DNA from: Acholoe squamosa
Taxonomy: Eukaryota > Annelida > Polychaeta > Phyllodocida > Polynoidae
DNA: 64,000 nt
Direction of reading: 5' to 3'
Assembly (NCBI GenBank): GCA_949317995.1
Contig: OX439036.1
Location: forward strand, 9,838,356 to 9,902,355
The notes beneath the pieces are model-generated. The model ran no database searches and was not told the origin of the DNA. It worked only from the letters and a program-made list of their open reading frames with translations. Numbering within the stretch: the first letter of the stretch is position 1; each line of letters begins with the position of its first letter. The translations under genes and the position numbers were made by a program. Positions 15,311-64,000 of the stretch are shown piece by piece.

Positions 15311-15340
15311 GTATACTTAATCACTGCTATATAATTCAAA

Positions 15341-15983: not shown

Positions 15984-15986
15984 AAA

Positions 15987-16241: not shown

Positions 16242-16296
16242 TACAGCTAACATAACCAGTTTCCGATACTACTTTGTGATACAGCTAACATAACCA
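16221..16296 (+). repeat. Perfect 38-base tandem duplication
   Basis: Two identical 38-base units (16221-16258 and 16259-16296) beginning GTTTCCGATACTACTTTGTG lie between the small membrane protein and the death-domain gene. They contain the stop codon region of the upstream gene. Confidence 0.85.
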
Positions 16297-16332
16297 ATCT
16301 TAACTTTACATCTGATTACATATAACTTCAAA

Positions 16333-16953: not shown

Positions 16954-16959
16954 AATGTT

Positions 16960-42835: not shown

Positions 42836-45260
42836 ATGAAGAATATCACAATGTAGGGGTGTGGTACAATACTGCCAGCTTCCACCATCCACATAACACC
42901 ACAGGTTTTTTTCTGCTGTGGATTGCGACAGTAGTTTGTTGCCTCAGCCAATGTTTCACCAGTGGAGTAATGTAGACCTGTGAAATCAGTCATCAGTATC
43001 AACATACTGTCTAAGTGGGATGGGAGCTGGTTTTTTGGTGACATACACTGATGATAGCTGATAATATGGGAACCATCTTGTCCCTAGAAGTGGATGTTAT
43101 CTAGGGACACGGTACCCATCATCACATGTCTTATCAGAGTTGTTTGCAACTTTAACAGAATTACAAAAAAATCAAAATAATTGCCTACGACCCTAAGATG
43201 GGATCCTAAGTGCAGCATTGAGTGCTTGATCTGCTACCTGTTGAGATAAGTGGCAAGCATGATTAGGGACATCTTTGTTATATATCGACAAATTTTTACC
43301 CTATATATAAAAAGGGGTTGCTTTGTCGCTGGTCCCCACCCCATTGAAATAGGCTTGAGTACTTGCCAGGAACAGATAAACCAAAACAGACTACCTAGAT
43401 TCATGTACTAAATCCAAAGTTAACTTGATTTGCGTTTTGTTGGCTTTGATGCTTACCATTATATTCGCATGCCTACTGCTAAAACCTTAATACCTCACAT
43501 ATAAGGCACACTCCATGTATAAGGCACACCCCAATTTTTGAGAAAGTGAGAGAGAGGGAGTAAAAAAAAGCTATAAGGCACATGTTGGGTTTGATTTTCA
43601 CCATTTTAAATTAGTATGGTTCTTTAGTATGATACATTCTCCTATATGGCACATTCCCAACTATTGTTGAAGCTAAAAACGCACTAGGGGGTTATCCTTG
43701 TGTATTATCCAATCACAATAGGAAAATAAATGCACCCCTGAAATGCTCTTTTATTCTGAAAAGATGTACATTAAATAAGTACCAAATTGATCAGCACGTC
43801 CTCCAAAAATTTAGGTGACATGATTTCATCTTCAATAAATCATAACATTTTTCAGTTTATCCTGTTGTAGGAAGATATCTTAGCAATACCTAAAATAAAC
43901 TTTATTGGTTTTTTTACAGACCTATGATGGAGTATTCATCTGAATGAGAGTCCCAGTGTGCACACTTCTGACCGTTCTCTCCTTCAGCCATGGTACCCAC
44001 ATAGTCCAGTGCTTTGTCCACATGGTAGCAATATTCTGACACTGTACAATAAAAGATATGACCTATGTTTTTATTTGCTTAACAGAAATAAAGCCAGTGT
44101 TTAATTGCTTGCTAAATTTTCAACAAATAATTTCAAGACTCTGAGACCCAAAGCACATGAACAGAATGACTTTTGGCATTTTTGAAAATTAACGGGTCCC
44201 TTATAATCAGCAGTATCTTATAACAATTATATATCTAGTTTGACTGCAAAAATACTATGTAGTTCAACTTACAGCAGTGATAGGTTGTGCCTGATGTAGG
44301 ATGACATGTTTCTGTTTCATGACAGGGGTTGCTGCTACATGGATCTGAATGATATTATTTACAGACTGTGGCTGTGTGGAGCATTGCTGTCCAAGTGTTG
44401 ACATGCCTTACCAGTATTTGTTGTAGACAAGGTACCTTTGTAGTCCTTCCCATCTTCAGTATGACGGCAGGATTCTGAGACTGGAAGCATTAGATGGTCA
44501 GGTAGAGGGAATTAGTGCTCTGATGTATGTTTTGTTTTGGATGCAAGTTTTAAAAAAAATCCAATCAATCACTGAGGAAATCTGCAGGATAAGATCAGTT
44601 TAATTCATTTAATGTAATTTGTTAATATTAGGGACTACTTGGGTTCACACAGGAACACCATACAAGGGAGAGTTATTGAAGTTATAATACTGCAGTTTGA
44701 CAATAAAGGTTAAAGTAATATATGTGTCATATTATGAGCATTTGAGACATCTTTGCCCAAACTGACTTTGCTCTGAAAGTAATAGTCCTTAGAATAGAAG
44801 GTTTGAAGAGTCACAGCCCATTCCCATTTTTCTAAAGCATACCATTTATGCTATAAACCTTTACTCCCATATGGTTTCAGCAGGCTATTGCATGATATGT
44901 TATGACTAGACAAATTAGTTCAGCCCGGTTCTAACGCTACTGAGCAGTTGCATGAAATGACTTTTTTTTACGGCAGGTGTATGGAGACCCAGCATCCAGC
45001 ACATGCACATGTAACTAGACTTGCCTTAAGGGATTCTCCCACTACAATTTATAGAGCTCAAGTTATGATTCAACTATGTTATAAAATAACCTCCTGGGGG
45101 TTATTTCCAAAATGAGTTTCATCAATGCAGCACCTTACCTAAAGTATCTTACTCTCTTTTGTGTTTGTTCCCAAAAAAGAAGGCAGCAAGAAACAGAAAG
45201 TGTAAACTGAGTCATCTTCGATAATAAATTGAATTCTGTTGGATTACTTTTCACTCTAAT

Positions 45261-46000
45261 CTGGAGGTTAATTCAAAAGGTCCTGAGATCGCAACCTCAG
45301 TGATCTTAGGAATTATTCTGCCTTATCCTATTAAGCGATCTTAAGATAGAATGCATTCACTTTTCCTAGCCAGCACTAAGGTCGCATCGATCTTAGCCTC
45401 AGCCCTCCTACACTATTCCAAGAAGTACTGACTGGGCACATGGGTAAGAGTCCCAAAATAAAGGAATAGCTGTGGAGTCACTCTCCTTCACAACAGTGTT
45501 TATACCATCGTTCCCCGTCCCCATATGGGCTAATAAAAGAGCACAAGGTGCAGTTGACCCTGTACAGTATTCAAGTGTTGTTGCCATGAATGTATGATTT
45601 ATGCTTGCCTATTAGAAGCATTGTGCCCTCCCCCCAGGACAAAGAGAGAGAAGGGAAGAATTACCTTACAGTACACTTAACGCATGAGTAGCCCTAAGGG
45701 CCCTCAAGGACACTCAGCAAATTTCCTCCCTCCCCTCTATATGTATGCAGCAGGCTATTCACTCTTTCGATCAGGAGTTTTCCCTGTAAGTGCTCTTGTA
45801 CTCAGGTGAAACCACTATGCAATTCTTTCACTAAGATCGCAGTGATCTTAGTGCTGGAAAAGGAATAGTGAAGTTATCCTAGGACTTGCTATTCCTGTCA
45901 GGCCTGCATTAGATAGGGTAGACCAGCCAGGTCTTATGATATGTGCCTACACTAAGATCGCTGGGGTTGGGATCCCAGGATGTTTTGAATTAAGCTCCAG
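45261..46000. mobile_element. Non-autonomous DNA element with ~48-base imperfect terminal inverted repeats
   Basis: The left end CTGGAGGTTAATTCAAAAGG and the reverse complement of the right end CTGGAGCTTAATTCAAAACA begin imperfect arms that continue through CTGAGATCGCAACCTCAG..GATCTTA. Further AAGATCG.AGTGATCTTAG palindromes lie inside. No transposase is visible. It sits in an intron of kringle gene B. Confidence 0.6.
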
Positions 46001-46529
46001 GTGATTTGTTAGGGTGACACAGAGCACAAACTTGGGCTATTTAGAACTTAGTCCGTCTTTTAGCATTCCATGTCCTCATGTAGCACAGTCAGTAATTTGT
46101 TGATAACAGTAATACAATGCCCTATACATACAGCAGTAGTAGGCGGTGTCTGACATTGGGTAACACGTGTCTCTTCGTTGACATGGATTACTGCTACATG
46201 GGTCTGTAAAGTAACATTGACTTTTTTTCAAAATTGTCTTTTGTTTATATACATGATGAAGTATTTCACTACAATCAAAAATGGGCAAAGCACTGTATAC
46301 TTGAGAGAAGCATGACTACTGCATGCTTCTTTTCATTTCTACACACTGAAAACCCTGCAGATCTTTAAACTCGTCAGATTGAGGACCTAGAGTCATCGGA
46401 AGAGGTACAGACAGGGGGCAGCACCTTACAGGGAGTGAAATCCCTTAGTCTATCTCTCCCCAGTATGGGTCTATGGCATTCTGTTGAAAATATGTAACAT
46501 ACTCACAAGGTGGCAGGTATGTGCCACTC

Positions 46530-46815
46530 ATGTTTGATGAACAGGCCTTCAGTCTTTAACTGAAGGTCTTCACCGCTGAGGACTTTAGGTGCTCAAGTTG
46601 ATGATACCTAAATCTACAGCTTTAGGTAGTCAGATTGAGGACCCAAGGTAGTCAGCACCAAGGTTGTCACTCTAACAACATTATGTAATCAGTTTGACTA
46701 CCTTGGGTGAGTGTGTTGACCTAAACCCATTAGGGTGACTACCCTGGGTGCTCAATCTGAGTACCTAAGGTTGTAGTTTTGGGTATCGTCAGTCTGACGA
46801 CCTTGGTGCTTTCAG
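46530..46815. repeat. Short interspersed words GGTAGTCAG / GGTGCTCA, degenerate
   Basis: TTTAGGT, GTAGTCAGATTGAGGAC and GTGCTCAA.TTGA words recur on both strands. Probably a decayed foldback element within an intron of gene B. Confidence 0.35.
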
Positions 46816-48679
46816 TGCAGATATGAAACCTATACAAAAAAGGATAATGTGGTACTATGAAAAGTGGAGAAACTATGAGGCTCAATATCAGCTTTTAGGC
46901 TGAATCTGAACAATTTTATGGTCACTTTAGCACTGCTCTATAGCATTACATCCACTTTAGCTGATTTTATAGGGTGCACCTGGGAAATAATCTTGCATAA
47001 TCCTTGCCTTATTTCTGTTTTATTAGCGTAACAAATTATTGGATGGACTTACCATTGCACACAGGTGGAGCACAATATTGCCAACATACATTCACATCAG
47101 TCGTGTAGCACCATACTTCAGTAGGATTCCGGCAGTAATGATGTATATCAAACAAGGATGTCTCATCCATAAAGTCACTCACATACAGACCATGAGAGTG
47201 GGGAGACCGTTTGTCCCAGCGTTGACATCTTTTGCCAGTGGCTGTTCTAGAGAGAGAGTCCCTTTGTAGTCCAACCCACCTCTTGTATGATAACATGTCG
47301 GGGAGACTGTGGTGGGTGGGGGGAGAAGCCAGGGTTAGGTTAATAAAGTGGACATTGAAGGCAAGCTTATAACTGGTACCTATTTGGTTAAGGGGGAATT
47401 CCACTAGGCTCCATTCTGACCAACTCACTCTGAAAACTACTGATATAGTTAATGTAAATCCCCCTTTACTCATGTAGTTATTTCTCTATCATAATGGAAC
47501 TTATGTCTTAAATGTCTTTATCTATAGCTCTGAAAAAAGAAGAAAAGCACACTTTTTTTCTTTGAACCATTATCTTTTAACTGTTCAAAATGTGTAACTT
47601 ACGACATAGGTGAGACTCTGCAGAAACCGGATGGCAAGTTTCTCCTGCACTGCATGGATTACTGACACAAGGGTCAGCTGAAAGAAGATAGTGTAGTATT
47701 TCTGACAATATAAAATCTAGCAGAAACAAGCTAGGCTATAATGAGAGCTGGGTTATGAACAGGAAATGTTTCTACCCATTCTCTATGTCATGAGTTATGC
47801 TTACTATATATGGTAAACAAGTATTATTCCATGTAAGCTGTATTATGTGTTTTTCAATCTTTTGAAAAGACGTAATGCTTTCAAAATTTTCCATATGCAG
47901 TACTTAGATTACCCTGGTTTAACAGGTGATATATCTTTAAAACTAACCTTTGTATCCATTATGACAAAGTACCACTAGCAGAAATACAATATTCCAGTGT
48001 GTCACCATTTGATGAACCATATTGTTGACTGCCATCACTGAACCCATAAAGATTGGTGGTACAATTTCATCAGAAGTTTTAAATGAAGATGTGCAAAATC
48101 AGTAATGCCTAAGATATCAGCTCTAGTGGCACACGGCCACCCCTCATTTGACAGTGTGAGAGTATAATTGGAATAGAAGGATGAACCTACTGGCCCCGCC
48201 TTTTTGTGTATTGACATTTGAATTGAATGCATCATTTGGCATGCAATACAACACACCACGTTATAAAGATAGATCAAACATATGGGTCAATACCTGTTGC
48301 AAGGCCATTCTTTATCTGCCCTGTTGCTGCATCTTCTCTATGATCCAGAGATGAATTGACAAGCATTATACAGTTTCACGGCTTATCGCTTAGGTCTATA
48401 CAATCTTATGGTCCACTTGCATTTGGTATCTGGCCAAGCCTCTTGGCTAGTACTTCCAGGACACTTCATCACCATTGACATTAACAGCTGGTTAATCAAT
48501 ATTATTGTCAGTTCTTAGACTAGGTCACATTGAACTAGTTACATTTTCCTTTTGTTTTTATATAGTGTTACAGTCGTTTATCATGTTTGTTGATAATAAT
48601 TTCAACCCTAGTAAGATTAAACTTTCTCTAACAGATTATAGAATATCCTCAACCTTGAGAATAGAAACTAAGGGATTTT

Positions 48680-49510
48680 TCATGTGCACTGTGTAAAAAG
48701 CTTGTGGTTATCTAAGTTGTTACAAATTAGAGCATCAGATTGCCATGTGGATGGAGATTTAAACCCCTGAAATATCCAATTATCCTGAGGAAGCTGTAGT
48801 ATTGCCAACCGGAATGCCCGGTCTGCCATTTTGAATGTTTTGATGTCCCGGTGAGTTCGGGCCTCCTTTTGGTCACTTACTGAAAGTTTTTGCCCTAGTC
48901 CCCGTACACCCTGCAGTAACTTGCCAGATACCAGTGGATATCTGTGTGGTATTGTGCTGGGGTCACAATAATCAAACGCCGCCATGAGGCCACTCCACAT
49001 GTGTTCACCTTGGGCAATATCCTTGTAAATATGTGTGTTCTGAGTGTGATTAGATGCCAATTCCAACTCCAATTCCTTTTGCTTCCCCAATTGTTGTATC
49101 TGCTTCTCCCTGGCTTTCTCTGGCTCAATCTGTGCCTGCAAATCCTTTACTTTCTGATCAAAGGCATCGTCCATATTCCTGGTCTGCACTGATGATTGTT
49201 GACCGGTGGTCCAGCCATCCTGCCCGGGTGCCCCAGCGTCCTGCATGGCCCCAGGGTGGTCATGGTTGGCCGACTCCATGGTAGCCAGTGGTCCCCCATG
49301 GCTTGCTTGCTCCTTTAGGGCCCCTAACTGCTGCTGTGGGTCCCATTTGGGGTTACGATGCTTGCACGCAGGACACAATCTGGAGTTTCCGTGGCACTGC
49401 TCCTCGCAAGAGGCACAAATGACTCCCATAATGAAGAGAAGAAAAAACAGAGTTCTTGTCCTGCACTGCTTGTCTGCCATGCTTGGCTGCTGCTTGCCGA
49501 ATGCTGTCAT
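48680..49510 (-). CDS. Unrecognised ORF with zinc-knot and coiled coil, duplicated nearby
   Basis: The minus-strand ATG at 49510 (a later in-frame ATG is at 49480) opens ~276 residues. A hydrophobic stretch (TLFFLLFIMGVI) is followed by a cysteine cluster (CASCEEQCHG..RLCPAC), a Gly/Gln/Ala-rich region, a charged coiled coil (QKVKDLQAQIE, then QLGKQKELELELA) and a helical C-terminal region. The pattern is like a retroelement gag-type protein, but no family is recognised. It lies between kringle genes A and B. A diverged copy occurs at 50.8-51.6 kb. Confidence 0.35.
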   Translation of the reverse strand: MTAFGKQQPSMADKQCRTRTLFFLLFIMGVICASCEEQCHGNSRLCPACKHRNPKWDPQQQLGALKEQASHGGPLATMESANHDHPGAMQDAGAPGQDGWTTGQQSSVQTRNMDDAFDQKVKDLQAQIEPEKAREKQIQQLGKQKELELELASNHTQNTHIYKDIAQGEHMWSGLMAAFDYCDPSTIPHRYPLVSGKLLQGVRGLGQKLSVSDQKEARTHRDIKTFKMADRAFRLAILQLPQDNWIFQGFKSPSTWQSDALICNNLDNHKLFTQCT

Positions 49511-49914
49511 CCCCACTGTTGGGGGAGAGTGTGAAGGAGAACTGTTCCATCTGTTCTACACTAGGCCAATAGATCACCACCGTGTGATCTATTTTGGACC
49601 ATTATATAAGGTATTTATTTGGACCATTATATGAGGTATTTACTTTCATATCATCAGTATAAGCAACATACAAGTTCATTGAAAATATAAAACAAAGATA
49701 ATTCACTTGTGGGATTTAAGTGCTCAAATCAAAGGAAGTTCTGATTATTTGTATTTCCTCCCACCAATTAAATTAATGGAATGTAATGTGATACTCACCA
49801 GGTAAAAGCACCTTCACTGTGTCAGTTAAGTGTTGTTGTTGCAGAATCCATGTAGGCCATCGAAACCTGGCACATTTTATCTGTGAACTATTCTAAGGCC
49901 ACTCCAGCAAGAAA
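48699..49914. repeat. Segmental duplication, copy 1
   Basis: It matches 50197-51932 at high identity, from CTTGTGGTTATCTAAGTTGT to GGCCACTCCAGCAAGAAAAG. Copy 2 has ~500 extra bases (about 50289-50787). Confidence 0.8.
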
Positions 49915-50196
49915 AGCCCGTGGAAATCTAGCTCATAATCCAAAAGCAGACATTAACAAACAACCCATCAGATCAGAGCTGATCATAGGCCAGGAATAAG
50001 ACATTCTGCTTTTAGATGTACATGTACAAGTTTTCTCTCATGTTCTGGTCACGTTCAGGTGCCAATCTTACGATAGATTCATCAGTTTCTGCTAAAACTT
50101 CCTTCCATACACTTGTCACACTTTAATCTAAGGATTTTTATGACTTCTTTTGCATCAAATTACATTGCTCTACATTCATAAAGTGTATCCAGTAAA

Positions 50197-51932
50197 AGGC
50201 TTGTGGTTATCTAAGTTGTTACAATTTAGGGCATCACATTGCCATGAGGATGTAGATTTAAACCCCTGAAATATCCAATTATCCTGAGAATATATTTCTC
50301 TGTTTAGTTTTAGCCTCAGGCCCTCTTCTGTGTACATCAGACATGGCAGGAGTGGTATATAGAATCTGTGTAAATGTGCTAGGTCAGCTTACAGACTAAC
50401 TAAAGGACCACATCTCTACTTACTACACCAAATACAATTACCAATGCAGACATGGCAGTCTACTCACGCTCATCTCAGTTATTTAATGGTTGCCTCAGAA
50501 CCAACCTGGCCCAAGGGAGTCATCCATTCCTCTATATGGACCAGGTGGGCATATAGCATTTCAGTGATGATGAAACACACAACAAGGAATGTTATCCGTC
50601 ATTCCTACCATCAAGTATCCTCAGCGACATTCACCCAAACCCTTTACTAATTTTTAATGGAACTTCAATCATGCATACAGTATCTGCTTTAACTTGGTTT
50701 GAAGAAAGAAAGGGAGTTCCTGTTATGAGCTGTTGAAGGCCTGTATGGGCCTGCGGATGGCCAATATCTCTTGAATCCATCAATGCAGAAGCTGTAGTAT
50801 TGCCAACCGGAATGCCCAGTCTGCCATTTTGAATGTTTTGATGTCCCGGTGAGTTCAGGCCTCCTTTTGGTCACTTACTGAAAGTCCCCGTACACCCTGC
50901 AGTAACTTGCCAGATACCAGTGGATATCTGTGTGGTATTGTGCTGGGGTCACAATAATCAAACGCCGCCATGAGGCCACTCCACACGTGTTCACCTTGGG
51001 CAATATTCTTGTAAATATGTGTGTTCTGAGTGCGATTAGATGCCAATTCCAACTCCAATTCCTTTTGCTTCCCCAATTGTTGTATCTGCTTCTACCTGGC
51101 TTTCTCTGTCTCAATCTGTGCCTGCAAATCCTGTACTTTCTGATCAAAGGCATCGTCCATATTCCTGGTCTGCACTGATGATTGTTGACCGGTGGTCCGG
51201 CCATCCTGCCCGGGTGCCCCAGCGTCCTGCATGGCCCCGGGGTGGTCATGGTTGGCCGACTCCATGGTAGCCAGTGGTCCCCCATGGCTTGCTTGCTCCT
51301 TTAGGGCCCCTAACTGCCACTGTGGGTCCCATTTGGGGTTAGGATGCTTGCACACAGGACACAATCCGGAGTTTCTGTGGTACTGCTCCTCGCAAGAGGC
51401 ACAAATGACTCCCATAATGAAGAGAAGAAAAAAACAGAGTTCTTGTCCTGCACTGCCTGTCTGCCATGCTTGGCTGCTGCTTGCTGAATGCTGCCATCCC
51501 CACTGTTGGGGGAGAGTGTGAAGGAGAACTGTTCCATTTGTTCTACACCAGGTGGTGGTAGTGCAGCATCTAGCATCAATAGGCCAATAGATCACCACCG
51601 TGTGATCTATTTTGGACCATTATATGAGGTATTTATTTGGACCATTATATGAAGTATTTACTTTCATATCATCAGTATAAGCAACATACAAGTTTATTGA
51701 AAATATAAAACAAAGATAATTCACTTGTGGGATTTAAGTGCCCAAATCAAAGGAGGTTTTGATTATTTGTATTTCCTCCCACCGATTAAATTAATGGAAT
51801 GTAATGTGATACTCACCAGGTAAAAGCACCTTCACTGTGTCAGCTAAGTGTTGTTGTTGCAGAATCCAAGTAGGCCATTGAAACCTGGCACATTTTACCT
51901 GTGAACTATTCTAAGGCCACTCCAGCAAGAAA
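50197..51932. repeat. Segmental duplication, copy 2, with ~500-base insertion
   Basis: Counterpart of 48699-49914. The insertion (about 50289-50787) interrupts the match after ATATCCAATTATCCTGA. Confidence 0.8.
50855..51598 (-). pseudogene. Broken copy of the zinc-knot/coiled-coil ORF
   Basis: The same protein as at 48680-49510 is spread over at least three frames, with a stop in place of a glutamic acid in the coiled coil (about 51094) and frame changes. The cysteine cluster and the Gly/Gln-rich region are still recognisable. Confidence 0.5.
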
Positions 51933-53040
51933 AGCACACATATAAAAGTACACTAAAAAATGATGATCAAGTTTGGTATCAAATTAAAGCTGAAGGCCTC
52001 AGCAATGCAGGTAGCTATTGAAGGTACACATTTAAAATGCTAATGATAACTCAACTTTAGAAAGCTATTTATTCTTACCTCTAGTCAGCCATGATGCATA
52101 GTCTTCGGGACCTATCCACTGCTTTTCCGAATTATATCCTCCCTCATCACTTTTTTTGTCTCTTGGTTTTTCGAGTGTCTCAATATTTTTTCAAATCTTT
52201 TATATACATGGCCCTGCTCTTATATACAGCTTTGTTTCAGCAGCATCCACACCACATCCACATGTGGGTGCTGATGGACAAATTGTATCGATGGGGAGCA
52301 GTTCAATAACAGTTTGACATATTTTTATAGTGCGAGACAAAATAATTATTTAATTATCTCAAAGTCAAGATTATGTAGGATTTTCTCTACATTTTACTTG
52401 TTCCTCGAATTTATCCTAGCATAGGCACCTAATTTATTTCAATGACTATAATAATTATCTCATTATCTAAAGCCAAAATTAGGTAGGGACTTTCTCTAAA
52501 TTTTACTCATTCCTCCAAATTATCCCAACATAAGCTCCTAATATGCTTATATGATTCATGAGTTGCTGCCATAAAAAATTGAAGAAGAGAAATACTAGGG
52601 TCGGCTCTGTTTTTTTTTCTAGGTAGTATCTAGTAAACTGAAGATATTCATTTGGCTTATCTTCTGCAATAGGGGTAAATCATTTGCCCTGTTTTCATAA
52701 TAAAATCATGTCCATCCCTTATTCAAGCCCAATCTTGGTCTAAGGTAATTATAATTATGACTTATAATGTATATGAAAGGCCTTCAAACCTCTGTTTATG
52801 ATGTGATAGTTCTGAATAAATTTGGTAATTCCTTGATTTTTATCCATTGTCCATTATCATAGCAACTGATTATGTTAAGGTTTATAAATTACCTCAAGTG
52901 CATGCTAGGCCTATAAATATAAATAATTGCCTGAAGAAGACAAATAAATGAAGAACACTCCCACAAAATATTTATGTCAAATTATCTCCAATAAAATTTT
53001 GAACTTGTTTGGTTTTCGATGGATATGGAATTATCTTAAA
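51933..53040. other. Downstream flank of kringle gene A, no gene recognised
   Basis: AT-rich host DNA. CTCTAAATTTTACT..TTCCTC.AATTATCC words form a ~110-base imperfect direct repeat (about 52380 and 52490). Confidence 0.3.
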
Positions 53041-56000
53041 TTATAAATTTAATATTTTACATTGGTCACAATGTAGGGGTGTGGTACAATACTGCCAACT
53101 TCCACCGTCCACATAACACCACAGGTTTTTTTTCTTCTCTGGGTTACGGCAGTAGTTTGCAGCCTCTGTCAGTGTTTCGCCCGTTGAGTAACTTAAACCT
53201 GCGAAATCAATATAATTTATGATCATCAGTTTATCTAGGATATAACTATGCATGGCAAAAGGATAACTTGTTTTACTGTAAATGTTGTCTTGAAAAACCA
53301 GTCCCGCACTAGACGATTAGGAAGGTCAATAACCCTAGTCATTAGAAATGTGCTTATTTGAGGTCTATTGTCATATCTTGATGTGCTAATATTGATATGA
53401 CTAAGAGGCAAGACCTTGAGTAAGTTGATAATGCAGTTGTATTTATTCCAGCATACTGTACAGAGTTTTAATGGATACTATTGTACGGGTAGGCGGCCTA
53501 TGCTGGTCTAAGGATATAGGTAGGATGCAGCAGGTAGGTAAGGTGGCAACCAGGGCAACCCCTATGATCGGTATGTGTAACTAAGGGGGGTGTGTGTACA
53601 TGTTTTTGCTACAGACCTGCAGCAGAGGCGCTGTATGAATAAAAGTCCCAGCGTAGACATGTCTGACCATTCTCTGTCACGGCCATGGTGCCCATGTAGT
53701 CGAGCGCTTTGTCCATGTGGTAGCAAGGGTCAGATACTGTACAGAAGAGAACAGCCTTTGTCATTTTTGCAAAATTGCAACAACAACAAAACAAAAAAGG
53801 TACAGTAGGTCTCTCACCATTAATTGTTTCTTTATTACAATTAGATATCTAGTTTGGATGCACATTTTGTACTCTATTATAAACTGTGACCAAAATATTG
53901 AGGCGGGAGATATAACCGAGCCGATCTTCTCGTTTGTATATATGTTGGATAATCGGACCTCCTTACTTGTAACAGCACATGCACAATATGTATTTCTGGC
54001 CGCTTTGAAACACAACAGGGATAGATAATACTGACATGTAAAGGTTTTTTTTTTTACCCGGAGACAGGTTATGCTTTTAATATAATTTCTGTGAACCTTA
54101 ATAAAATGCTTAAAGAATGATACAGTGTATTTCAACTTACAGCAGTGGTAGGTTGTGTCTGATGTAGGATGACATGTTTCTGTTTCACGACACGGGTTGC
54201 TGGTACAGGGGTCTGAATGATATCAGTAAATAGCTCAATTCAAACAAAAATATATTAATATCTATATGTGAGAGAGTCGTTTTTTATGACTGTGATAATG
54301 CTTGTAATGTGTGAGCAGCCACAAAATATAAATTTTTTGTCCCAGATTTACACAACATCACTGGTAATTCTTGAACAATCTATTATGGTAATTTGTTTAA
54401 AACAATTTTTTTGTAATCTGTTATATAAATGTTTCTTTTATGTTAATGCTATTCCTCAGAATATCTGGGTCCTGTCAGCCTTCATGGATGCAAGAATATT
54501 GATTTTCAAAACAGAATATTACTGTATGCACTTACCGTTGCATACAGATATAGCACAAGGTTCCCATCGTGAATTCCCATCAGTTGTATAGCACCAAACT
54601 CCTTCCCCTCCATCTGGATTCCGGCAGTAATTATTGATGTCAGTCAGTGATGTTTCAGCTACAAATTCAATCAGACTTTTGCCATGACTATGTGGAGACT
54701 GGCTGTCCCAGCGTTGACATTTCTTACCAGTATATGTTGTAGATAAAGTACCTTTGTAGTCCTTCCCATCTTCAGTGTGACGACAGGATTGTGACACTGG
54801 AAGCATCAGAGGGTCAAGTCAATTGGGTTGTCTACCAGATACAATCAAATGACCGAGCCGATTTATTTTTTAGATCTTAAAAATACTTTGGATGTGACAG
54901 TCCAATTAATCTTCAGGAATAAATCTGTTCATTTCAGTGGATAAAATCAAGTTCCTTCAATCTAATTACTCCAGATTGTCATGAGAGACTTGTAAACTCT
55001 GGACAGTCCTAACAACACATAACATACAATGGAGAGTTATTTAAGTTACAATATTGATGTTGTATGGTTGATAGAAATTTAACTTATGAGCCACTAGTTA
55101 TGGTGATTCTGTGTGGCCTACCTATGTGTCATATTTAGATAGTTTCAGTTATAGTCATTATAACAGTATATGGCCTTTTGATAGGATTTTAGGCTTTTTC
55201 AAATGTATAGTCGGATGACGGGGGTGGGGGGGGGGCGGGGGCAATAGCCAGTCTCAGGCACCTCAGGCATCTAATTCTCTGTGTTATTAGACTGTACTCT
55301 GTTTTCACAGGATTTTTTAGGTTTAACCTTAAAAGTTCAGGTCTTATCAATTCATGAAAGCATTAGACCACACCTACATGCCTTACTTTTCTGTCTTTCA
55401 TTTGTGTTGCTCAAAAGCAGTCATGAACCAAAACATCAGGAAAATGCTATCATAGACAATACAGTTCATTTGAAAAAAAAATGGTGCCTTTTCACAGGTG
55501 AGTGGAAGTTGAAGGGTGAAGCAGAGTGTAGCTGCCCAGTAAACACAACTTTGTATATGGATTTTGCAAGAGGTATATCTACGTAGAATTCTGGTTGCAA
55601 CTATGTATTTTTGCTTGGTATGTGGATATTCAAACATTAAGGTTTATCTATGTTCTTTATACGAAGATATAGGAAATACATATTTCTATATATTTTTACA
55701 TTTTCCTCCTACCAAAATGCTAATTAAAACGAGGGGAGGAAGAAAAGAAAATTGAAAAACTTTGGTAAAAATCTAACATGGTGAAGCCTTGAACCCTAGA
55801 CCTTCCACATCTAATGCCTGCTTCTTGCCACTGTGCTATAGATTCTAAAATAAAAAAAAAGATTTTTCTATGAGAAGTCCATCATGTCATTTTCATTAAC
55901 TTCTACCAAGAGCAAAGAGAATATCGGATGCTTTTGGATTTAGATAAATTGGCTACCTGTATAGCTCAGTAGGTAGAGCAAAGATTCTTAAATACAGGGG

Positions 56001-58174
56001 TCATGGGATCAATCCTAGCCCATACCTGTAAATGATTTTATAGGGAGCATTATGTAATCTTTTCTTTTCTTTTTTTTTTAAATTATTTTTAGTTAGCTTT
56101 TTTGTAGGAGAAAATCTTGATAATAACGTATCTCAGATGACTACATATCTAGAAGGTAGTTAAACCTTAATGTTTGAACGTCCATATACCTAGCAAAAAA
56201 AAAAAGCTAATTCAAAACAATTTGGAAGGAACCAAACCTAGTTATACCAAATCATGTACGCAGCATTTTGGTATGGTGTTTACTGGGTGCTTTAGCTGGA
56301 CACACATATTGCACCTTTTTAGTGTTTTGGCAATAGCCTCCTAGTGTATAAAATCCAGAAATGGCCTTGTTATATGATGGTCTATACGTACAGCAGTAAT
56401 ATGTGGTGTCTGCAGTAGGGTGACATGTGTCTACTCGCTCACATGGGCTACTGTTACATGGATCTACAAAGTAACATTGACTCATATATAAAATTATCTT
56501 TAATCAAGTGTTATAAAGAATAACAGTTTAAAGCAAGATCAGATATGCCACTACAGTAAATAATGTCATATGCACTGTATGAACCTGACAGCAGAAAACA
56601 CTCATTTCATGGATTATAATGCCCATATCTTGAATATAATATGTGGTAGAGAAAGGACCAACATAATATAATCTAAAGATTGGTTCTTGATTTGATTTTC
56701 AATTACTTGTATAAAGATATTTTTTATAAATCAGTTTGTCTACCACACCCAATTCTACCAATGAGTATTGTAATACCTCGCGTATAAGGCGCACCCCTCA
56801 TATAAGACACACCTAGTCTTTATGGGTGTGCTAGAAAAATTTAATTAGATTTAATTAAATGGAATAACTTTTGTTCTATTTAATGCATTTTCAAAATCTG
56901 AAAACCTAGGGGAAGCATTAACCAACATTTGAAGTTATGGGAGGAATTGGGAAGATTTTACCCTCAGAGTTTTCTTATCCTATGAGGTGCACGAGGAGCC
57001 TATTCTCATGTATAAACTGCGCTTTACACTAGGTATAACGGTACTATATGAAAACCTTTTGGCTGCATAATAACATGTTTCTTCATTGATAACGTATACA
57101 CTTACCATTACATACAGATAAAACACAATATTCCCATCGGACATTCTCATCAGTTGTGTAGCACCAAACTCCCTCCTCTCCATCTGGATTCCGGCAATAA
57201 TTATCAATGTCAGCCAGTGATTTCTCAGCTATGAAATGACTTGCAGTTTTTGAGTGAGAATGTGGAGACTGGCTGTCCCAGCGTTGACATGTTTTACCAG
57301 AGTATGTCGTAGAAAGGGTTCCTTTGTATTCCACTGCATGCCTTGTATGATGACAGGTCAGGGTGACTGGATGGGGGAGAGGAGAGAAGCCAAGATTCAG
57401 TTGATAAAGTGAGCAATTACCTTAAGTGTAGCTGAGAAATCTATAAGCCACAGGAGGGGCCTGAAACATTTTCTGTTCCTTGCGTAGGTCTATATATTCC
57501 AAATCCTGTGTAGATATATGTATAATAAGTCGCATCCTGAGTTCAGAAACCTTGTGTAAGTTAAATTAAGAGGAAGATATTAACTGCAGCTGGGGGCCGA
57601 AATATGTCCTTGTTAAGATACAACCAGAAAATATATTATGATTTTCCAAATGTTGATAATGTGTAACTTACGGCAGAGGTGAGACTCTGCAGAGACCGTA
57701 TGGCAAGTTTCTCCTGTACTGCATGGATTACTGGCACAAGGATCAGCTGGAAAAGAAATGGCCACTTAGAAATACCAATATATCTCATGTTTACATTGTG
57801 TAAAGTGCACGTTTCAAAGCAAATCTTGGGCAAAATGTTGGTAATTCTAGTTCTGTTCTAAAGTATAAGGCACACTCCAAGCCGAAAAGGATTCTATAAG
57901 GTGTTGCAGTGGCCCATCCTCAAGTATAAGGCATGACTTAGTAGAGCAAGATATCAAAGTATTAATTGAAAACTTCCAAAAGTGGGTGGTCCCATACTAT
58001 TCATCAGCGTGCCATCAGTAATATTTTTAAAACATACTGTCATTAGAATATGATATGTGAGTATTCAAACTAACCTTTATATCCTTGAACACAGAGTGCC
58101 ACCAACAGTGGGAGTAGATTCCATGATGTCCTAAACTCATGGTTCAAGTTAATGATTATCATAACTAAGGCCAT
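53041..58174 (-). CDS. Secreted three-kringle protein (kringle gene A), eight exons
   Basis: Exons read on the minus strand: 58174-58075 (signal peptide), 57746-57672, 57366-57106 (kringle 1), 56463-56392, 54796-54536 (kringle 2), 54212-54141, 53736-53617 and 53198-53041 (kringle 3 in two halves, stop TAA at 53043-53041). All junctions have AG/GT sites and phase 1. Lengths sum to 1119 bases, 372 residues plus stop. The signal peptide is LLPLLVALCVQGYK-like. Each kringle has six cysteines with NYCRNP(D/E) and (V/L)WCY. Four-cysteine DPC.S(N/S)PC linkers separate them. Kringles bind lysines, lipids or proteins; no protease domain follows. An extra Cys lies near the C-terminus. Confidence 0.8.
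55220..55241 (+). other. G-rich tract, potential G-quadruplex
   Basis: G5 T G10 C G5 within the intron of kringle gene A. Confidence 0.6.
55953..56029 (+). repeat. tRNA-derived (SINE-like) sequence
   Basis: TAGCTCAGTAGGTAGAGC is a good A-box and D-arm, and GGGATCAATCC a near-match B-box. The ends do not pair into an acceptor stem, and a T-rich tract follows. Probably the head of a SINE, not a working tRNA gene. Confidence 0.5.
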
Positions 58175-58669
58175 CACAGGTACAAATTCAATAGCGACTT
58201 TAGATGAAGAAGTGCAGCAGCACCAATGTCAAAGGTCTCATCTTTAGTAAGCTATGGTTATCTCATTTGACAGTGTATGAGTACTTTTGGCGTAGAAGGA
58301 TGGGAATTCTATGGACACATCCTCGAGTATAAATATTTGAATAATATGCATCATAGGGCCTGCCATACAAGATAAAATCTTGCATCAATTTCTTAAACAT
58401 ATAGATCTATATTTTGTGCCTATAGCCATCTTTATGGCTAGGTCTGTTTTGTTTAGTGATCATCTCCCTCCATAAAATCCCAAACACAGATGCATTATTA
58501 AATGTTGCATGGCCAAGCCTCTTTGGTTGCTTGGCAGGGAGGCACCAGAAGTTAATAATTTATGAAGTTTATGAAGTTTTAACACTGTTTATTGGCTAAA
58601 GAAAGCACTACATAGGTAGTTATTATAATCAGTAGCCAAATACAATATATCATATAGACAGAGTATAGT

Positions 58670-59515
58670 TCACAGTCTGCCCAATGTTGTTAAAATTTCT
58701 CCTTTTAAGCTCGATTTAAAACCATCTATATTAGGTTTTAATTGTATTTCTGCTGGTAGTATATCCCATATTTGGTTTCCACGATACAACAGACTATTTC
58801 TATAGATTTCCCTCTTTGGTCTACTCACTTTCAATTTTTTCTTATTATATCCTCTTAGTTCTCTGGTGGGAACCATAACATTCTCTACACATCGAGCATA
58901 TTTGTACATGTAACATGCTAAGGATTTTTTACGCCTGATACTAAGTGATTCCATCTTACATCTCATCAAAAGGTCTCCTATATGAACATCTTGGGCGTTC
59001 TTTATCTTCAAACATGCAGATTCCTGCACAAAGCTACAGTACTCTAGTATAGGTACAATCATTTGTTTGTATATCTTTAACGAGTTTCCGATATCAAGAT
59101 ATTTTACAATGTTTCGTAGTTGTTTCAACTTTGCAGTACCCATTCCATCTATTTTCTTACAATGTTGTTTAAAATTTAGGTCTTTATCTATTATTACACC
59201 CAGGTAATTGAATTTATCCACATTCGTTAGTACAGTACCTTGCATAGTAATATTACCTCAGCGTATATATTGTCTTATAGAACTACACCACAGAGTTTTT
59301 GTTTTCTTAACATTCACCGTAAGAACATTCAATCTACACCATTTCTCAATTTCGTTTACATCCCTCTGCATCAATGCGGTCATTATTACAGGGTCTTTTC
59401 CATTTATTACCAATGCCACATCATCAGCATATAGGAAACATTCACAATTTACTACTCTACTAGTAATATTATTGAGATATATTGTGAGGGTTTCACAGTG
59501 ATCCCTTAATATCAG
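58670..59515 (-). pseudogene. LINE reverse transcriptase fragment, 5'-truncated
   Basis: Reading the minus strand, LTIYLNNITSRVVNCE is followed by FLYADDVALVING, the RT catalytic YADD motif, then W...LNVLTVNVKKTK. After a frame break the intact part from about 59245 (KFNYLGVIIDKDLNFK, IYKQMIVPILEYCSF, LLYRGNQIWDILPAE) runs to a stop at 58670. This is the palm/thumb and C-terminal region of a Jockey/CR1-like LINE. A polyadenylation-type AATAAA follows near 58590. It lies between the Gypsy element and kringle gene A. Confidence 0.75.
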
Positions 59516-59524
59516 AGTATCTTA

Positions 59525-59917
59525 CCTTGAAGATGTGGGAGAGACAACTCCAGCACCTGTGTTGTGGTCTGCAGTCAGCTCTAAAAGTGCGGGAATCTCG
59601 CCTCCTAAGCCCGCGCGTCGGGCCCGGGATTCCCTGGGGCCGGGGAAACCCCCTGTTGCCTCGCGCGGCAGATGCGCGCGTCTCACACTCCTCTCCGTTC
59701 AGTTTTTAAAGGGCAGGGCACTGATTTGATAATATCCAGACTATGTACATGTTCGCCGGACCTTTCGGTCCAGCGCTACTGCTGATATATACAGGGTGCT
59801 GGTCTATGATCCCAGCTCTATGATCGTTTCCTACTTGTCTATATGCCTACAACCTATGGCGACGACGACTCCTAACTATGACGCCGACGACTACTAACTA
59901 TGTGTCTTCTCGGGGGT
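59525..59917 (-). other. GC-rich 3' region of the Gypsy element, possible LTR
   Basis: It lies directly downstream (minus strand) of the TatD-type ORF. It contains a TATATA box-like site, a GC-rich stretch rich in GCGCGC words and no coding potential. An LTR is expected here, but no clear polypurine tract or TG...CA ends are seen. Confidence 0.3.
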
Positions 59918-61834
59918 TTAGGATTGAGGCCCGAAGAACACCTCAGCGTTCCGTGCTGCAATCCTCAGAATGATGCTACGGGGCAGGCCCCGCAGCTCCC
60001 CTATACGTCTGGCAACCTCCAGGATTGACTCTGGGCAATGCTGTTTTGGATGGATTCCAGGGGGGCACAGGTATGGGCTGTCTGTATCCAGGAGCAGCTT
60101 GTCCAAGTTGATGTTTTGAACGACCTTCTCCAGCTCTGCGTGGTGGTTAGGGCGTAGTAGCAATGCAGAGATGCTGAAGGACACCTCCGGGAACGACTGT
60201 TCCCAGGCCTTCTGCTCTGCAAGGCCCCCATCAAAGCTGTGGAGTTGGATACGGTGATTCTTGGGTAGCACTTGTGTAAGGACCTGTCGGCACATCCTAC
60301 CAGCCCGTCCATCACCCCTGTCGCGTGTATGGATTACGACTGGCAGTCTCCTTTCTGCAGCTACCGAGGCTAGATTGGCCAGTGCCACCTCCTGGGCCAG
60401 GACCCGTCCATGGCCTTCGTTGTGGTAGAGGTCGATGCCGATCTCCCCCACTGCGACCGCGTCCTGGGTCGCCGCCTCACGGGTCCGGTTTAGCAGGTCC
60501 TCCAACTCCTCCAGCCGTTCTGGGACTATTGCTGGATGTAGGCCCACCACTCTTAGCACTCCCACCCCCGGGAGACTTTCCATGCGTCCCCAGTCACCCG
60601 GGTAGCATTGGACATCAACTACCGTAAGGGTAGAGAGGTTCCTCCGCCAGCCTTTGTCATAGACAGTGGACCTGGTCGAGTTTCTGGCCAGCTGGCGAAG
60701 GTGACAGTGGGCATCAAAGCCGGGTGGAAGGGTTGACCCCAGGCACCCAGCTGACCTATTTGATGTCTTGATTCTTTGACGGGTGTTCTGGTCACAAAGC
60801 GCCAAGAGGGGTGCCAGCACACGCCAGTGAAGCAGGCAACCTTCGCTTGATGAAGGATTCATGATCCTTTTCGCCGGAGCAGTGAGCCCCAGCGCCTGAT
60901 CATAATGCTGATCATAATGCGCCATGAGTGCTTCTTGGCAGGGTGACACCGAGATCTCTCCCAGTGTGTCCTTGTTCAGCAGGTGGTGTAGGTTGACTCT
61001 CTTAACACCCAGGGAATGCGACAGGTCTTCAAGCATTCCTGCGCACATCCCAACCCAACGGTCCAGCATCCTATCGTCGAATGGTCTTGCTCTTCGGCAC
61101 TGGCTCATATGCTCGGTCAAGCAGCTCGGTCTTGTGAACTGCTCCTGACAGCCCCAGCATGCTGTTTCTGGCTGGATGAAGAATGGCATGTGAGATTGTA
61201 CCACATGGCGATGGATGTGATTAGAACGACTGCACATGTCCGACACTGGGCATGTGCTGGTCTTCCGTCGCTTCTTTACCGCTGGCTGCGGAACGGTACC
61301 ACGCCTCTTGGGCTGGTTATCATTTGGGCTGGGACGACTCTCTATGGTAACCGTCCTAACTTCTTCCTCTTCCTCATGTTCTCTCTTCCTGTGGCCTGTG
61401 GCCAGTGTGACAGACCGCTGTCTGCTTTTCTCCACCGCAGCTCCATCCGGACCACTTGCGAAAGTGACCCGGATTCCCGTTGGTGTTGGGCCGGCTACTT
61501 CCCGGCCTTGATCTTTCTGTTGGACGATGGACACCAGAGGGGCCACCGTTGGTGTTAGGGTAGCGCCCTTCTGGTCATGTTGCTGCCGTGGTGGAACTTT
61601 ATCTTGCCCGGGTTCTGTTGACCTGGTCGAGTTCATCCAGGTTGGAAGTCCCGCCATCATTGGTCCCGCCATCATGGGTAGGGGAGACCCCCACTGTGGT
61701 AACGACCAGGGCGAGCCAAACAGAAGAGGTGCTTGGCCCATGCTGGCTGTTGCTGCTGATGGAAGGGGCATTGGGACCAGGATGAAACCATTTGGTGGCA
61801 TCTGGTTTGGCTGAGCAGGCTGGCTCTGATCCAT
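59918..61834 (-). CDS. Zinc-finger TatD-type metal-dependent nuclease carried by the Gypsy element
   Basis: 638 residues from the ATG at 61834; the frame is open ~45 bases upstream. Order: Pro/Met-rich disordered N-terminus; a bipartite basic NLS-like segment (about 174-191, KRRG...KKRRK); a Cys/His cluster CPVSDMC...H....H and a CWGC...H...C finger (about 195-246); a helical linker; then a TatD domain from about 370. All TatD-type metal ligands are visible: DAHCHL (H376, H378), GEIGID (E464), VIHTR (H502), QLHS (H532) and DTDSPYL (D585). TatD enzymes are Mg-dependent exo/endonucleases. A splice-acceptor-like TTCTCTTCACCATTGCAG lies at 61874-61857. The position after Pol is that of a retroviral env gene. 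Confidence 0.8.
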   Translation of the reverse strand: MDQSQPAQPNQMPPNGFILVPMPLPSAATASMGQAPLLFGSPWSLPQWGSPLPMMAGPMMAGLPTWMNSTRSTEPGQDKVPPRQQHDQKGATLTPTVAPLVSIVQQKDQGREVAGPTPTGIRVTFASGPDGAAVEKSRQRSVTLATGHRKREHEEEEEVRTVTIESRPSPNDNQPKRRGTVPQPAVKKRRKTSTCPVSDMCSRSNHIHRHVVQSHMPFFIQPETACWGCQEQFTRPSCLTEHMSQCRRARPFDDRMLDRWVGMCAGMLEDLSHSLGVKRVNLHHLLNKDTLGEISVSPCQEALMAHYDQHYDQALGLTAPAKRIMNPSSSEGCLLHWRVLAPLLALCDQNTRQRIKTSNRSAGCLGSTLPPGFDAHCHLRQLARNSTRSTVYDKGWRRNLSTLTVVDVQCYPGDWGRMESLPGVGVLRVVGLHPAIVPERLEELEDLLNRTREAATQDAVAVGEIGIDLYHNEGHGRVLAQEVALANLASVAAERRLPVVIHTRDRGDGRAGRMCRQVLTQVLPKNHRIQLHSFDGGLAEQKAWEQSFPEVSFSISALLLRPNHHAELEKVVQNINLDKLLLDTDSPYLCPPGIHPKQHCPESILEVARRIGELRGLPRSIILRIAARNAEVFFGPQS

Positions 61835-61856
61835 CTCTAGTAGGTGATGCTTCAAG

Positions 61857-61874
61857 CTGCAATGGTGAAGAGAA
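61857..61874 (-). promoter_or_regulatory. Splice-acceptor-like site before the TatD ORF
   Basis: TTCTCTTCACCATTGCAG (minus strand) has a pyrimidine-rich tract and CAG 23 bases before the ATG. It would allow expression from a spliced subgenomic mRNA, as for retroviral env. Inference. Confidence 0.4.
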
Positions 61875-61950
61875 GTCGAGGTCTATAACTTCATCTTACA
61901 TAATCTAGTGGGACTACTTGTGTACTACGTCTACTTATGGGTTGCTATTG

Positions 61951-64000
61951 TTAGTGGAGAATACGAGGAAGCTGAGAAAGGCGGCGAATCGTGTTTAAAA
62001 GTCTTGCGGGAAGGCGTATGGGTCTTCCTCTTCTCGACCTTCTTTCCACTAAGTCGCTGCCCGGCTCCACTGGGCTACTTTGATCATGATGTGTATTTTG
62101 TTTTCTTGTGGTGTTTCTTTTTAGGTCCACCCCGAGCCCTCTGGGCTGGTGCGCTGCAGTCTGAGGATTATCTTCTGTCGGGGATCCAGCAGGCTCATCA
62201 GGGGCTGCTAAAGGATTCCTAGCTAGAGGTTCAGGAGTCTGGTTGTCAGGGGCAGCTAAGGATGGATCTTTCTTCTGCCCCATGTCAGGGGGTCCAGTGC
62301 CCAGGGCCCTGCCATTGTCTGGGGCAGCCAGGGGTGTGTCTTCTCTCTGGCTACTGTTGGGGGGGCCGTACTCCGGGGCTGTGTCATTATCCGGGGCAGC
62401 TTCCTGTTGATTGTCTTCTGCAGTATGTCCCACTGGCTTGTTCGATGCGGCTGTGGGATCCCTTGCAGCTGGTCCTGCAGGCTGGTTGTTGGGGGCAGCT
62501 GGGTATGCATCTTCTCTCTGCCTTATGTCAGGGGGGCCATGCCCCTGGGTTAGGTCGTGCTCTTCCTCATCTGCGGATTCCTCCAGATGCAACAGCCGAT
62601 GTCTCATACGGCGTAGCCACATTGGAATTGCTCTGTCTCTGCAGATGCTTAGACGGTCATGGTGGATTACTTCCACCTTTTTCCTCCCTCGGATCTTCAG
62701 AAGCACCGGTGACAGGACTGCCTCAACTAGGTATGGGCCCTTCCACACCGGTTTGAGCTTGGGGCTCTCGCCCTTTTTGTTCGCTGTGTCCCTCTTGTAT
62801 ACTAGGTCACCTTGTTCGTACTTCACATGGGACAATTTTTGGTCATAAGTCTTTTTCTGGAGCTCCTGTTTTGCCTTGAGACCTTCACGCGCCATTTCAT
62901 GGACTTCCTCCATGGTTCGTCGTAGCTTTTGGACATACTCCGAGGCAGAGACAGGAATATTGTCGTTCCTGGCGGTGAGTCCGAAAACCACATCCTCTGG
63001 TTGCGTAACTTCCCGGCCCAGCATCATCATGTTGGGGCTATATCCAGTTTGCTTGTGGGGAACCGCTCGGAGGGCTCCAGCCAGGACAGACAGGTGTCTA
63101 TCCCATTGCCTTGCCTTTCCCTCGAGAAAGCAGCGCACCATCTGCAGGATTGTTCTATTGTACCGTTCCACCTGTCCATTGGATGCAGGCCTGTATGGTG
63201 TTGTTCTGGTTTTCTTTACCTTTAACAAGTCACACACGCTGCGTATGACATTGCCGTCAACATTGCGACCCTGATCGGTATGTAGTTGTTGTGGGCATCC
63301 CCAGCGCGCTACAAAGTCATCTACAAACTTATCTGCGATGATCTCGGCCTTCTGATCCGGGATGGCATAGCATTCCACCCACTTGGTGAATTGGTCAACA
63401 ATAACTAGGATACAGGTGTTCTTACTCTCTGATTCCGGTAGCGGCCCCAGTATGTCTAGGTGGACCCTTTCTAGCGGTGCACCAGCATGGTATTTCCCAA
63501 GGGGGCCACGTGCCTTCTGGCAGGGTTTCTTATTTCGGGTACAGGTGGCACATGACCGGACAAAGTCCCGGCAGTCGCTCTGCAGCTGGAACCAGATAAA
63601 TCCTTGTTTCAGACGTGCATATGTTTTGTCCTGCCCCAGATGACCAGCCGTGGCGTGGTCATGGCAGAACTCCAGTATTTCCTGTCTGTGCTCCTTCGGT
63701 GCTATCAGTAGGAATCTAGGCTTATTCAGCGTTTCCAACTTGTAGTGTAGCACCCCTTCTCTCATAACCAGCTGTGACCTGTGCACCCAGAAGTACTTTG
63801 TGGCTGGGCTGCTGATGGCAAGAGCAGCTTGCGACGGCTCGCATCCTGCCTCCATCCACCCTATGATGGGGCTAAGGTCATGGTCCTTCAGTTGTTTTTC
63901 CCTTAATTGTTCCTTAGAATACCCGCCTAGGCATGTATCCAGCATTGTCTGCTCATCTTCCGCATTTAGATCATCAACATCAAGCATTCTGATCACTGTC
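61951..64000 (-). CDS. pol: Ty3/Gypsy Pol, C-terminal half with integrase (5' end off the window)
   Basis: About 683 residues, open to the right edge. A zinc-binding HATAGHLGQ...CATC module (H2C2) is followed by the integrase core: D in HLDILGPLP, D in LHTDQG and E in GQVERYNRT, the DDE triad. A GPYLVEAVLSPVLLKI segment fits the GPY/F module. No chromodomain is evident. The C-terminal ~220 residues are Pro/Ala/Asp-rich with three imperfect ~40-residue repeats around GPP(D/N)...(R/K)(E/K)D...AAPDN, ending in an Arg-rich tail. The frame stops at 61951, about 100 bases before the TatD ORF on the same strand. Confidence 0.9.
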   Translation of the reverse strand, partial: TVIRMLDVDDLNAEDEQTMLDTCLGGYSKEQLREKQLKDHDLSPIIGWMEAGCEPSQAALAISSPATKYFWVHRSQLVMREGVLHYKLETLNKPRFLLIAPKEHRQEILEFCHDHATAGHLGQDKTYARLKQGFIWFQLQSDCRDFVRSCATCTRNKKPCQKARGPLGKYHAGAPLERVHLDILGPLPESESKNTCILVIVDQFTKWVECYAIPDQKAEIIADKFVDDFVARWGCPQQLHTDQGRNVDGNVIRSVCDLLKVKKTRTTPYRPASNGQVERYNRTILQMVRCFLEGKARQWDRHLSVLAGALRAVPHKQTGYSPNMMMLGREVTQPEDVVFGLTARNDNIPVSASEYVQKLRRTMEEVHEMAREGLKAKQELQKKTYDQKLSHVKYEQGDLVYKRDTANKKGESPKLKPVWKGPYLVEAVLSPVLLKIRGRKKVEVIHHDRLSICRDRAIPMWLRRMRHRLLHLEESADEEEHDLTQGHGPPDIRQREDAYPAAPNNQPAGPAARDPTAASNKPVGHTAEDNQQEAAPDNDTAPEYGPPNSSQREDTPLAAPDNGRALGTGPPDMGQKKDPSLAAPDNQTPEPLARNPLAAPDEPAGSPTEDNPQTAAHQPRGLGVDLKRNTTRKQNTHHDQSSPVEPGSDLVERRSRRGRPIRLPARLLNTIRRLSQLPRILH

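Follow-up and report, generated by a model that had tools for sequence, protein, structure and literature searches.

The window analysed here, a stretch of 64,000 nucleotides from the polynoid annelid Acholoe squamosa, was placed by sequence match at C2:9838356-9902355 in a genome of 1.48 Gb and 63 contigs. At its right-hand end, on the minus strand, lies part of a long terminal repeat (LTR) retrotransposon in which the integrase end of pol is followed by a third open reading frame (ORF3) for a nuclease of the TatD family. The features of this element within the window are given below in the order in which they would be transcribed, where P0001 is the ORF3 protein, P0002 and P0003 are relatives of it found by protein search, and NLS stands for nuclear localisation signal.

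61951..63999, minus strand: integrase and C-terminal tail of pol, the frame running on past the window edge; Integrase_H2C2 E 1e-19, rve E 4.3e-12
63187..63699, minus strand: integrase H2C2 zinc-binding and DDE (rve) domains by Pfam, residues 101-271
61857..61871, minus strand: predicted 3' splice site TCTTCACCATTGCAG, AG at 61857, 22 bases before the TatD ATG
59918..61834, minus strand: ORF3, TatD protein with zinc-finger-like motifs, 638 codons from ATG; frame open from 61882 (654 codons), stop at 59918
61262..61309, minus strand: basic NLS-like stretch by eye, residues 192-207 of P0001; basic stretches are visible in P0002 and P0003 too
61097..61252, minus strand: two zinc-finger-like motifs (C211/C217/H226/H231; C242/C245/H258/C262), invariant Cys/His
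59930..60718, minus strand: predicted TatD nuclease domain with all six metal ligands, PF01026 E 1.4e-37, residues 389-651
59688..59698, minus strand: polypurine tract ACGGAGAGGAG, abutting the 3' LTR and the same in 7/7 copies
59483..59687, minus strand: 3' LTR, 205 bp, TGTGAG...CTCACA, from the alignment of copies and a genome search
59520..59528, minus strand: predicted 5' splice site AAG/GTAAGA in the LTR; the 5' LTR copy would be the one used
59479..59482, minus strand: target-site duplication ATAT (3' side), falling in a copy of a long interspersed nuclear element (LINE)

The part of pol inside the window is a frame of 682 codons that enters at 63999 and stops at 61951, and the full frame, read from the genome beyond the window, has 1,623 codons and no stop. 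The gap from the pol stop to the ORF3 ATG at 61834 is 116 bases on the same strand, much as an earlier sequence-only reading had it when it described an intact pol with a DDE integrase followed closely by a frame of 638 codons. By chance a frame of 654 codons would stay open with a probability of about 2e-11 given the local base composition; each of the five remaining frames is broken by 22-25 stops. In the upstream stretch L009, Pfam identifies gag (HHH_3, Retrotrans_gag, zf-CCHC) and the start of pol (gag-asp_proteas, RVT_1, RT_RNaseH), giving the order gag, then pol with protease, reverse transcriptase (RT), RNase H and, downstream, integrase (Integrase_H2C2, rve). Upstream of gag and outside the window stands the 5' LTR, C2:9908399-9908603, identical to the 3' LTR; the whole element, which the earlier reading had proposed to recover with both LTRs, thus spans C2:9897838-9908603, or 10,766 bp. 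Directly after the 5' LTR in 7/7 LTR pairs is TTGGTGCCAGGAGTAC, which we take to be a candidate primer binding site. The features of an LTR retrotransposon are all present, i.e. TG...CA LTR ends, the candidate primer site, the polypurine tract and short target duplications, and we take the placement in Ty3/Gypsy from the order RT-RNase H-integrase and the Pfam families. Since the 3' LTR (59483-59687) stands beyond the ORF, the TatD gene is inside the element, and on its sequence features the element is a Ty3/Gypsy LTR retrotransposon with TatD as its third gene, in the order pol, TatD, 3' LTR. The 5' leader (L009/L029), about 1.5 kb from the 5' LTR to the gag frame, has internal repeats of ~85-88% identity.

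The edge of the 3' LTR is exact in 8/8 aligned copies, with near-identity up to TGTGAG...CTCACA and unrelated flanks past the edge. Among seven LTR pairs the target duplications are identical over 4 bp in six (ATAT, TTAC, CTTA, CTGC, TTTA and TTAT) and agree in 3/4 bases in the seventh. The paired LTRs differ at no site in four cases and at one site in two, and in one have lengths of 202 vs 204 bp; the insertions are probably recent, because the paired LTRs are nearly identical. The insertion site of the window element is a LINE-like reverse transcriptase fragment (window 58570-59482, minus strand, by eye), with an ORF of 195 codons at 58670-59257 whose LINE label is also by eye.

The TatD domain of ORF3 scores 129.9 bits against the curated cut-off of 27 of PF01026. 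At the positions expected for the TatD motif (HxH, E, H, H, D), P0001 has H392, H394, E480, H518, H548 and D601, which we take to be the metal ligands, so the complete set claimed from the letters is indeed there; all six recur in the alignment of P0002 and P0003, and 11 of the 12 own copies read have kept them. An AlphaFold model of residues 205-654, built with 12 alignment rows, was drawn on for the TatD domain alone, in which block confidence (predicted local distance difference test, pLDDT) is mostly 78-98, with three blocks at 51-66; a model of the whole protein, with a mean pLDDT of 34.5, was set aside. The best 14 PDB chains matched by the modelled domain are described as TatD-family proteins or deoxyribonucleases, among them 6l25, 1yix, 1xwy, 1j6o, TATDN3 (2y1h) and TATDN1 (2xio). 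By curated cut-off and by predicted fold, then, the ORF3 domain is of the TatD family.

The zinc-finger-like motifs noticed earlier fared less evenly: the eight Cys/His are invariant in P0001, P0002 and P0003 and in 12/12 own copies read, whereas the Pfam zf-C2H2 match is weak (E 0.07) and under the cut-off. No envelope family was matched on ORF3 by Pfam, which gave just TatD_DNase and the weak zf-C2H2; transmembrane segments were not searched separately. Residues 173-180 of P0001 form a motif, EEVRTVTI, in acidic surroundings, which is invariant in the three proteins and might bind protein.

Copies in the genome and selection on the gene

A genome search with the TatD ORF gave at least 77 matches (68 of 214 candidates scored, so that the counts are lower bounds). 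The first subfamily has at least 11 TatD copies, on eight contigs, covering 642-654 of 654 residues at 99-100% identity, and 10/11 are stop-free; the second has at least 11 copies of 641-642 residues at 84-85% identity, 6/11 of them stop-free. The remaining matches are shorter, more diverged or broken, and the older copies L044-L046 were outside the analysis.

Linkage was read from both sides of the gene. A search with the 205-bp LTR stretch gave at least 41 matches (40 of 122 candidates scored), all of which were compared with 26 of the 77 TatD places: 38/41 adjoin one of these places, lying less than 1.5 kb downstream or 12 kb upstream. Fifteen of the 26 TatD copies are flanked by LTR matches at both ends, in 12/26 the LTR is at exactly 234 bases, and the 84-85% copies whose 3' side was examined have a 3' LTR match in 6/6 cases. 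Outside the 38, two LTR matches belong to a single copy on C11, and the third, C7:37069137, has a TatD fragment ~4.2 kb downstream. The pol search gave at least 90 matches (65 of 20,881 candidates scored), of which 60 rows were kept once repeat pieces of the same places had been dropped. A TatD match follows on the same strand within 6 kb downstream in 49/60 pol places, and behind 14/14 of the near-identical pol copies found (>=604/682 residues, 98-100%), so the further copies with the order pol-TatD that the sequence-only reading proposed to look for do exist. The 11 pol places without TatD comprise five members of a sister family (64-65% identity), the C11 copy and five shorter pieces, two of which have a TatD fragment 7-9 kb downstream.

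Family copies lacking TatD, with TatD as a lone host gene, had been named as the pattern that would speak against capture, and the sole near-identical LTR pair short of TatD is the C11 copy (L037, C11:39267134-39274567). It was weighed as a native TatD-less copy and ruled out as such: it is an internal deletion copy, because its pol breaks off near query residue 218 and just the last part of TatD follows. A single open frame of 1,009 codons holds both its pol and its TatD end, between good LTRs, with the duplication ATAC/ATAC, and perhaps it was moved by other copies.

The selection analysis compared the window copy with five second-subfamily copies (L038-L042), with L043 and L007 (first subfamily) left out. 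The ratio of nonsynonymous to synonymous substitution rates (dN/dS) is 0.15-0.17 for the TatD domain, 0.13-0.15 for the fingers and middle region, and 0.40-0.44 for the N-terminal 188 residues; for the integrase it is 0.23-0.28 and for the integrase C-terminal tail 0.25-0.39 (three comparisons). The TatD domain is thus under purifying selection between the subfamilies. The equal constraint on fingers and middle could be taken to mean that the TatD fold has been kept as a nucleic-acid-binding scaffold without catalysis, but the six ligands persist in 11/12 own copies read and in P0002 and P0003, and we consider such a scaffold very improbable. Synonymous divergence is 0.08-0.12 in the integrase and higher, at 0.25-0.28, in TatD, a sign that the subfamilies may be mosaic.

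Given that the gene lies inside the LTRs, stands behind 14/14 near-identical pol copies and is under purifying selection, it belongs to the element and moves with it, in independent insertions with target duplications. The alternative, a host TatD gene that happens to neighbour a Gypsy insertion, has next to no probability left, and is refuted by an ORF inside the LTRs that was carried with them to many chromosomes.

Relatives of the gene and a second TatD-bearing element

The sister Gypsy family, whose pol frames are long and intact and in which no TatD was seen, is the natural comparison. Its five copies (C7:84335801, C8:14341798, C8:27229186, C4:71640411 and C10:74920857) have pol frames of 1,449 codons in four cases and 1,157 in one. 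In the copy L054 the pol stop is at 578 and the DNA in common with L055 ends at 1096; between these positions there is no plus-strand ORF of 80 codons or more, and the genome search with PF01026, in which all 123 candidates were scored, gave no match near any of the five copies. The integrase tree was built from 36 rows: the window element, the second subfamily, two sister copies and 32 of the 120 pol matches listed. It unites the window element and the second subfamily with P0013 and P0014 (99/94) and places the sister family next to them (100/100); P0013 (78% identical) comes from a 3,030-base contig. Because the sister family shows no TatD beside its intact frames, the simplest reading is that TatD was gained once, on the branch above the sister family; it could instead have been lost in the sister family.

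The protein search with ORF3, in which 7,997 candidates were scored, returned P0002, a protein of 623 aa with 9 member sequences, and P0003, of 528 aa with 5; both are 43% identical over 79-80%. P0001, P0002 and P0003 have a common order of acidic EEVRTVTI motif, basic stretch, two finger-like motifs, middle region and TatD, and among the matches listed just P0002 and P0003 share the finger motifs and middle region. P0005 (290 aa, on a 1,211-base contig) is closer than any bacterial TatD among the matches listed and has no finger region. In the protein search with pol, P0014 was second-best of 645 matches (120 listed), at 55% over 90%. The longest contig is 251,034 for both P0003 and P0014, and from this equal figure they are probably on one contig. 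The listed pol matches that carry an organism name are seven molluscan ones (Mytilus four, Batillaria, Saccostrea and Haliotis) and one bacterial draft genome. IMG/VR held no relative, either by single protein or by alignment scan.

The TatD tree has 18 rows, five of them Gypsy TatDs, with the host represented by one partial gene. The Gypsy TatDs form their own clade (100/100) on a branch of 1.91, outside the bacterial TatDs and the one partial host TatD. The idea that the element had captured a host nuclease holds in one respect, the gene being the element's own; a host TATDN gene is a possible source, though in this tree the Gypsy TatDs stand by themselves on a long branch.

A second kind of mobile TatD turned up in the same genome. 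Besides the Gypsy copies, the 113 matches to PF01026 include 12 places where the match is complete or almost so within a single frame of 294-308 codons, with a stop in 1/12, and the surroundings of two of these were read. At C8:27.36 Mb (L047/L053, C8:27357800-27369300) the TatD ORF (E 4.3e-45) lies behind a PIF1 helicase (E 1.2e-35) and a weak OTU match, with Helitron_like_N (E 8.9e-19) upstream; because Helitron_like_N and PIF1 helicase accompany the TatD ORF, this element is, by its predicted domains, a Helitron carrying a TatD ORF of ~300 codons. At C1:111.9 Mb (L049, C1:111914500-111919500) the order is helicase-like, OTU-like, TatD, with the ORFs assigned by eye. Four TatDs of this single-frame kind make up a clade of their own (100/99), separate from the Gypsy TatDs, and show a weak grouping (83/78) with the host TatD exons; a single clade of Gypsy and Helitron TatDs is neither favoured nor rejected, with a p-AU (approximately unbiased test) of 0.2. 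Nothing on Helitrons and TatD together was found in the open-licence literature searched. We tentatively suggest, at somewhat less than even odds, that TatD travels among eukaryotic mobile elements as an accessory module, taken up separately by Gypsy elements and by Helitrons of this genome, as a nuclease for single-stranded DNA (ssDNA) and RNA-DNA hybrids might help either mode of replication or protect both kinds of element against the host.

Elsewhere in the window, 761-18434 on the plus strand is a Polinton/Maverick-like element with an rve integrase and a dUTPase, an A32-like ATPase match (E 2.4e-05), a weak double-jelly-roll match below cut-off (E 0.0085) and an 818-codon ORF that looks by eye like a family B DNA polymerase, for which Pfam gave just a weak Endonuclease_7. 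At 48680-51900 a stretch of nearly 2 kb that includes a minus-strand ORF of 291 codons is repeated at ~96-98% identity (repeat families D2, D3, D8, D12), and across 42846-57752 blocks recur at ~10-kb spacing (D5, D6, D9, D11, D14), with Cys-rich exons that are kringle-like by eye.

A possible role for ORF3

We favour, with a probability of roughly 0.55, the reading that ORF3 is made from a spliced mRNA, enters the nucleus and trims or clears the element's own intermediates. The donor in the LTR would be joined to the acceptor before the ATG to yield an ORF3 mRNA, the arrangement by which retroviral env mRNA is made. The basic stretch would act as a nuclear entry signal, the finger motifs would bind nucleic acid, and the TatD domain would be an active metal-dependent nuclease like its characterised relatives. 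Its substrate may be single-stranded ends or RNA-DNA hybrids of the element's replication and integration intermediates. The splice-acceptor-like site TCTTCACCATTGCAG, seen earlier before ORF3, does lie 22 bases upstream of the ATG; its core CCATTGCAG is kept in 14/14 aligned copies of the two subfamilies, and the donor is the same in 8/8 copies of the first and 6/6 of the second. Scored with splice-site weights, AAG/GTAAGA is the top donor of the 4.5 kb of element sequence inside the window, and the two strands of the window hold 14 sites of that quality, this one included. ORF3s of LTR retrotransposons are said to come, as a rule, from spliced messages (PMC5408684), E. coli TatD is a 3'-5' exonuclease on ssDNA and RNA, and human TATDN2 is an RNA 3' exonuclease and endonuclease that resolves R-loops (both PMC12709183).

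Several observations weigh against this scheme. The acceptor is middling, with 195 as good in 127,968 positions, and two other acceptors in the element's 4.5 kb score at least as high as the one before the ATG; the intact-frame copy L003 lacks the usual ATG. The copy L040, 1/12 own copies read, has Q at H548, and the relative P0005 is without the stretch that holds this residue. The finger and middle region was modelled poorly. The weakest step is the choice of the element's own intermediates as substrate, as a role against host defence fits much of the same evidence.

In that alternative TatD acts mainly on host RNA or DNA (small-RNA precursors, R-loops at defence loci, sensed cDNA) and counters silencing. 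We know of no host target, which tells against it; the NLS-like stretch and finger motifs of ORF3 would suit it as well, it would explain the Helitron TatD of the same genome by a benefit independent of reverse transcription, and an extra Gypsy ORF in orchids has been discussed with regard to host surveillance (PMC9289625). We hold this role to be possible and rather unlikely. Less probable again is that TatD is an apurinic/apyrimidinic (AP) endonuclease or repair factor that keeps the element cDNA free of abasic damage, e.g. after cytidine deamination, for which the AP endonuclease activity of human TATDN1, TATDN3 and E. coli TatD (PMC12709183) can be cited.

Comparison with known systems

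LTR elements are usually said to need gag and pol alone, and env where they are infectious, and few mobile elements are, to our knowledge, known to carry a TatD-like enzyme. That a nuclease gene has been kept and copied again and again points to a stage of the life cycle, or a barrier raised by the host, at which TatD activity is of use. What TatD proteins do in animals is poorly understood, and a Gypsy TatD and a Helitron TatD in one genome offer a testable comparison. There is a warning for annotation as well: TatD genes counted in such genomes may be genes of mobile elements. In the giant squid, TATDN2 is listed among predicted genes in the Hox cluster (PMC6962438).

The closest parallel is with the Juno and Vesta elements of bdelloid rotifers, where an enzyme-coding ORF3 likewise takes the place of env. 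The enzyme is by type a 3'-5' exonuclease, for RNA or ssDNA; the ORF is missing from the earliest branches and belongs to ORF types common to an unrelated element class (PMC5408684). The nuclease there is of the DEDDy (RNase D-like) type, unlike the metal-dependent TatD barrel here, and the second element class is the Penelope-like elements in bdelloids vs a Helitron here; the main text of that paper has 0 mentions of TatD. A Phalaenopsis Gypsy with an ORF for an AlkB-type N6-methyladenosine (m6A) demethylase is likewise a Ty3/Gypsy element with an acquired and kept enzymatic ORF, and differs in the enzyme, the orchid host and its length of 25 kbp vs 10.8 kbp (PMC9289625). Env-bearing Gypsy elements such as the errantiviruses also have a third ORF after pol that is likely expressed from a spliced message, whereas the window element has an enzyme in place of the envelope. 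TATDN1, TATDN2, TATDN3 and bacterial TatD share the fold and metal ligands, but the window TatD is carried by a retrotransposon and has two finger-like motifs and a middle region. A TatD gene in an LTR retrotransposon was not found among the papers listed from the open-licence literature searched, judged by title and opening of the abstract; enzymatic ORF3s known in LTR elements include the bdelloid DEDDy and GDSL types and the orchid AlkB. Capture of an enzyme as ORF3 by LTR elements is thus already known, and TatD as the captured enzyme is the new part.

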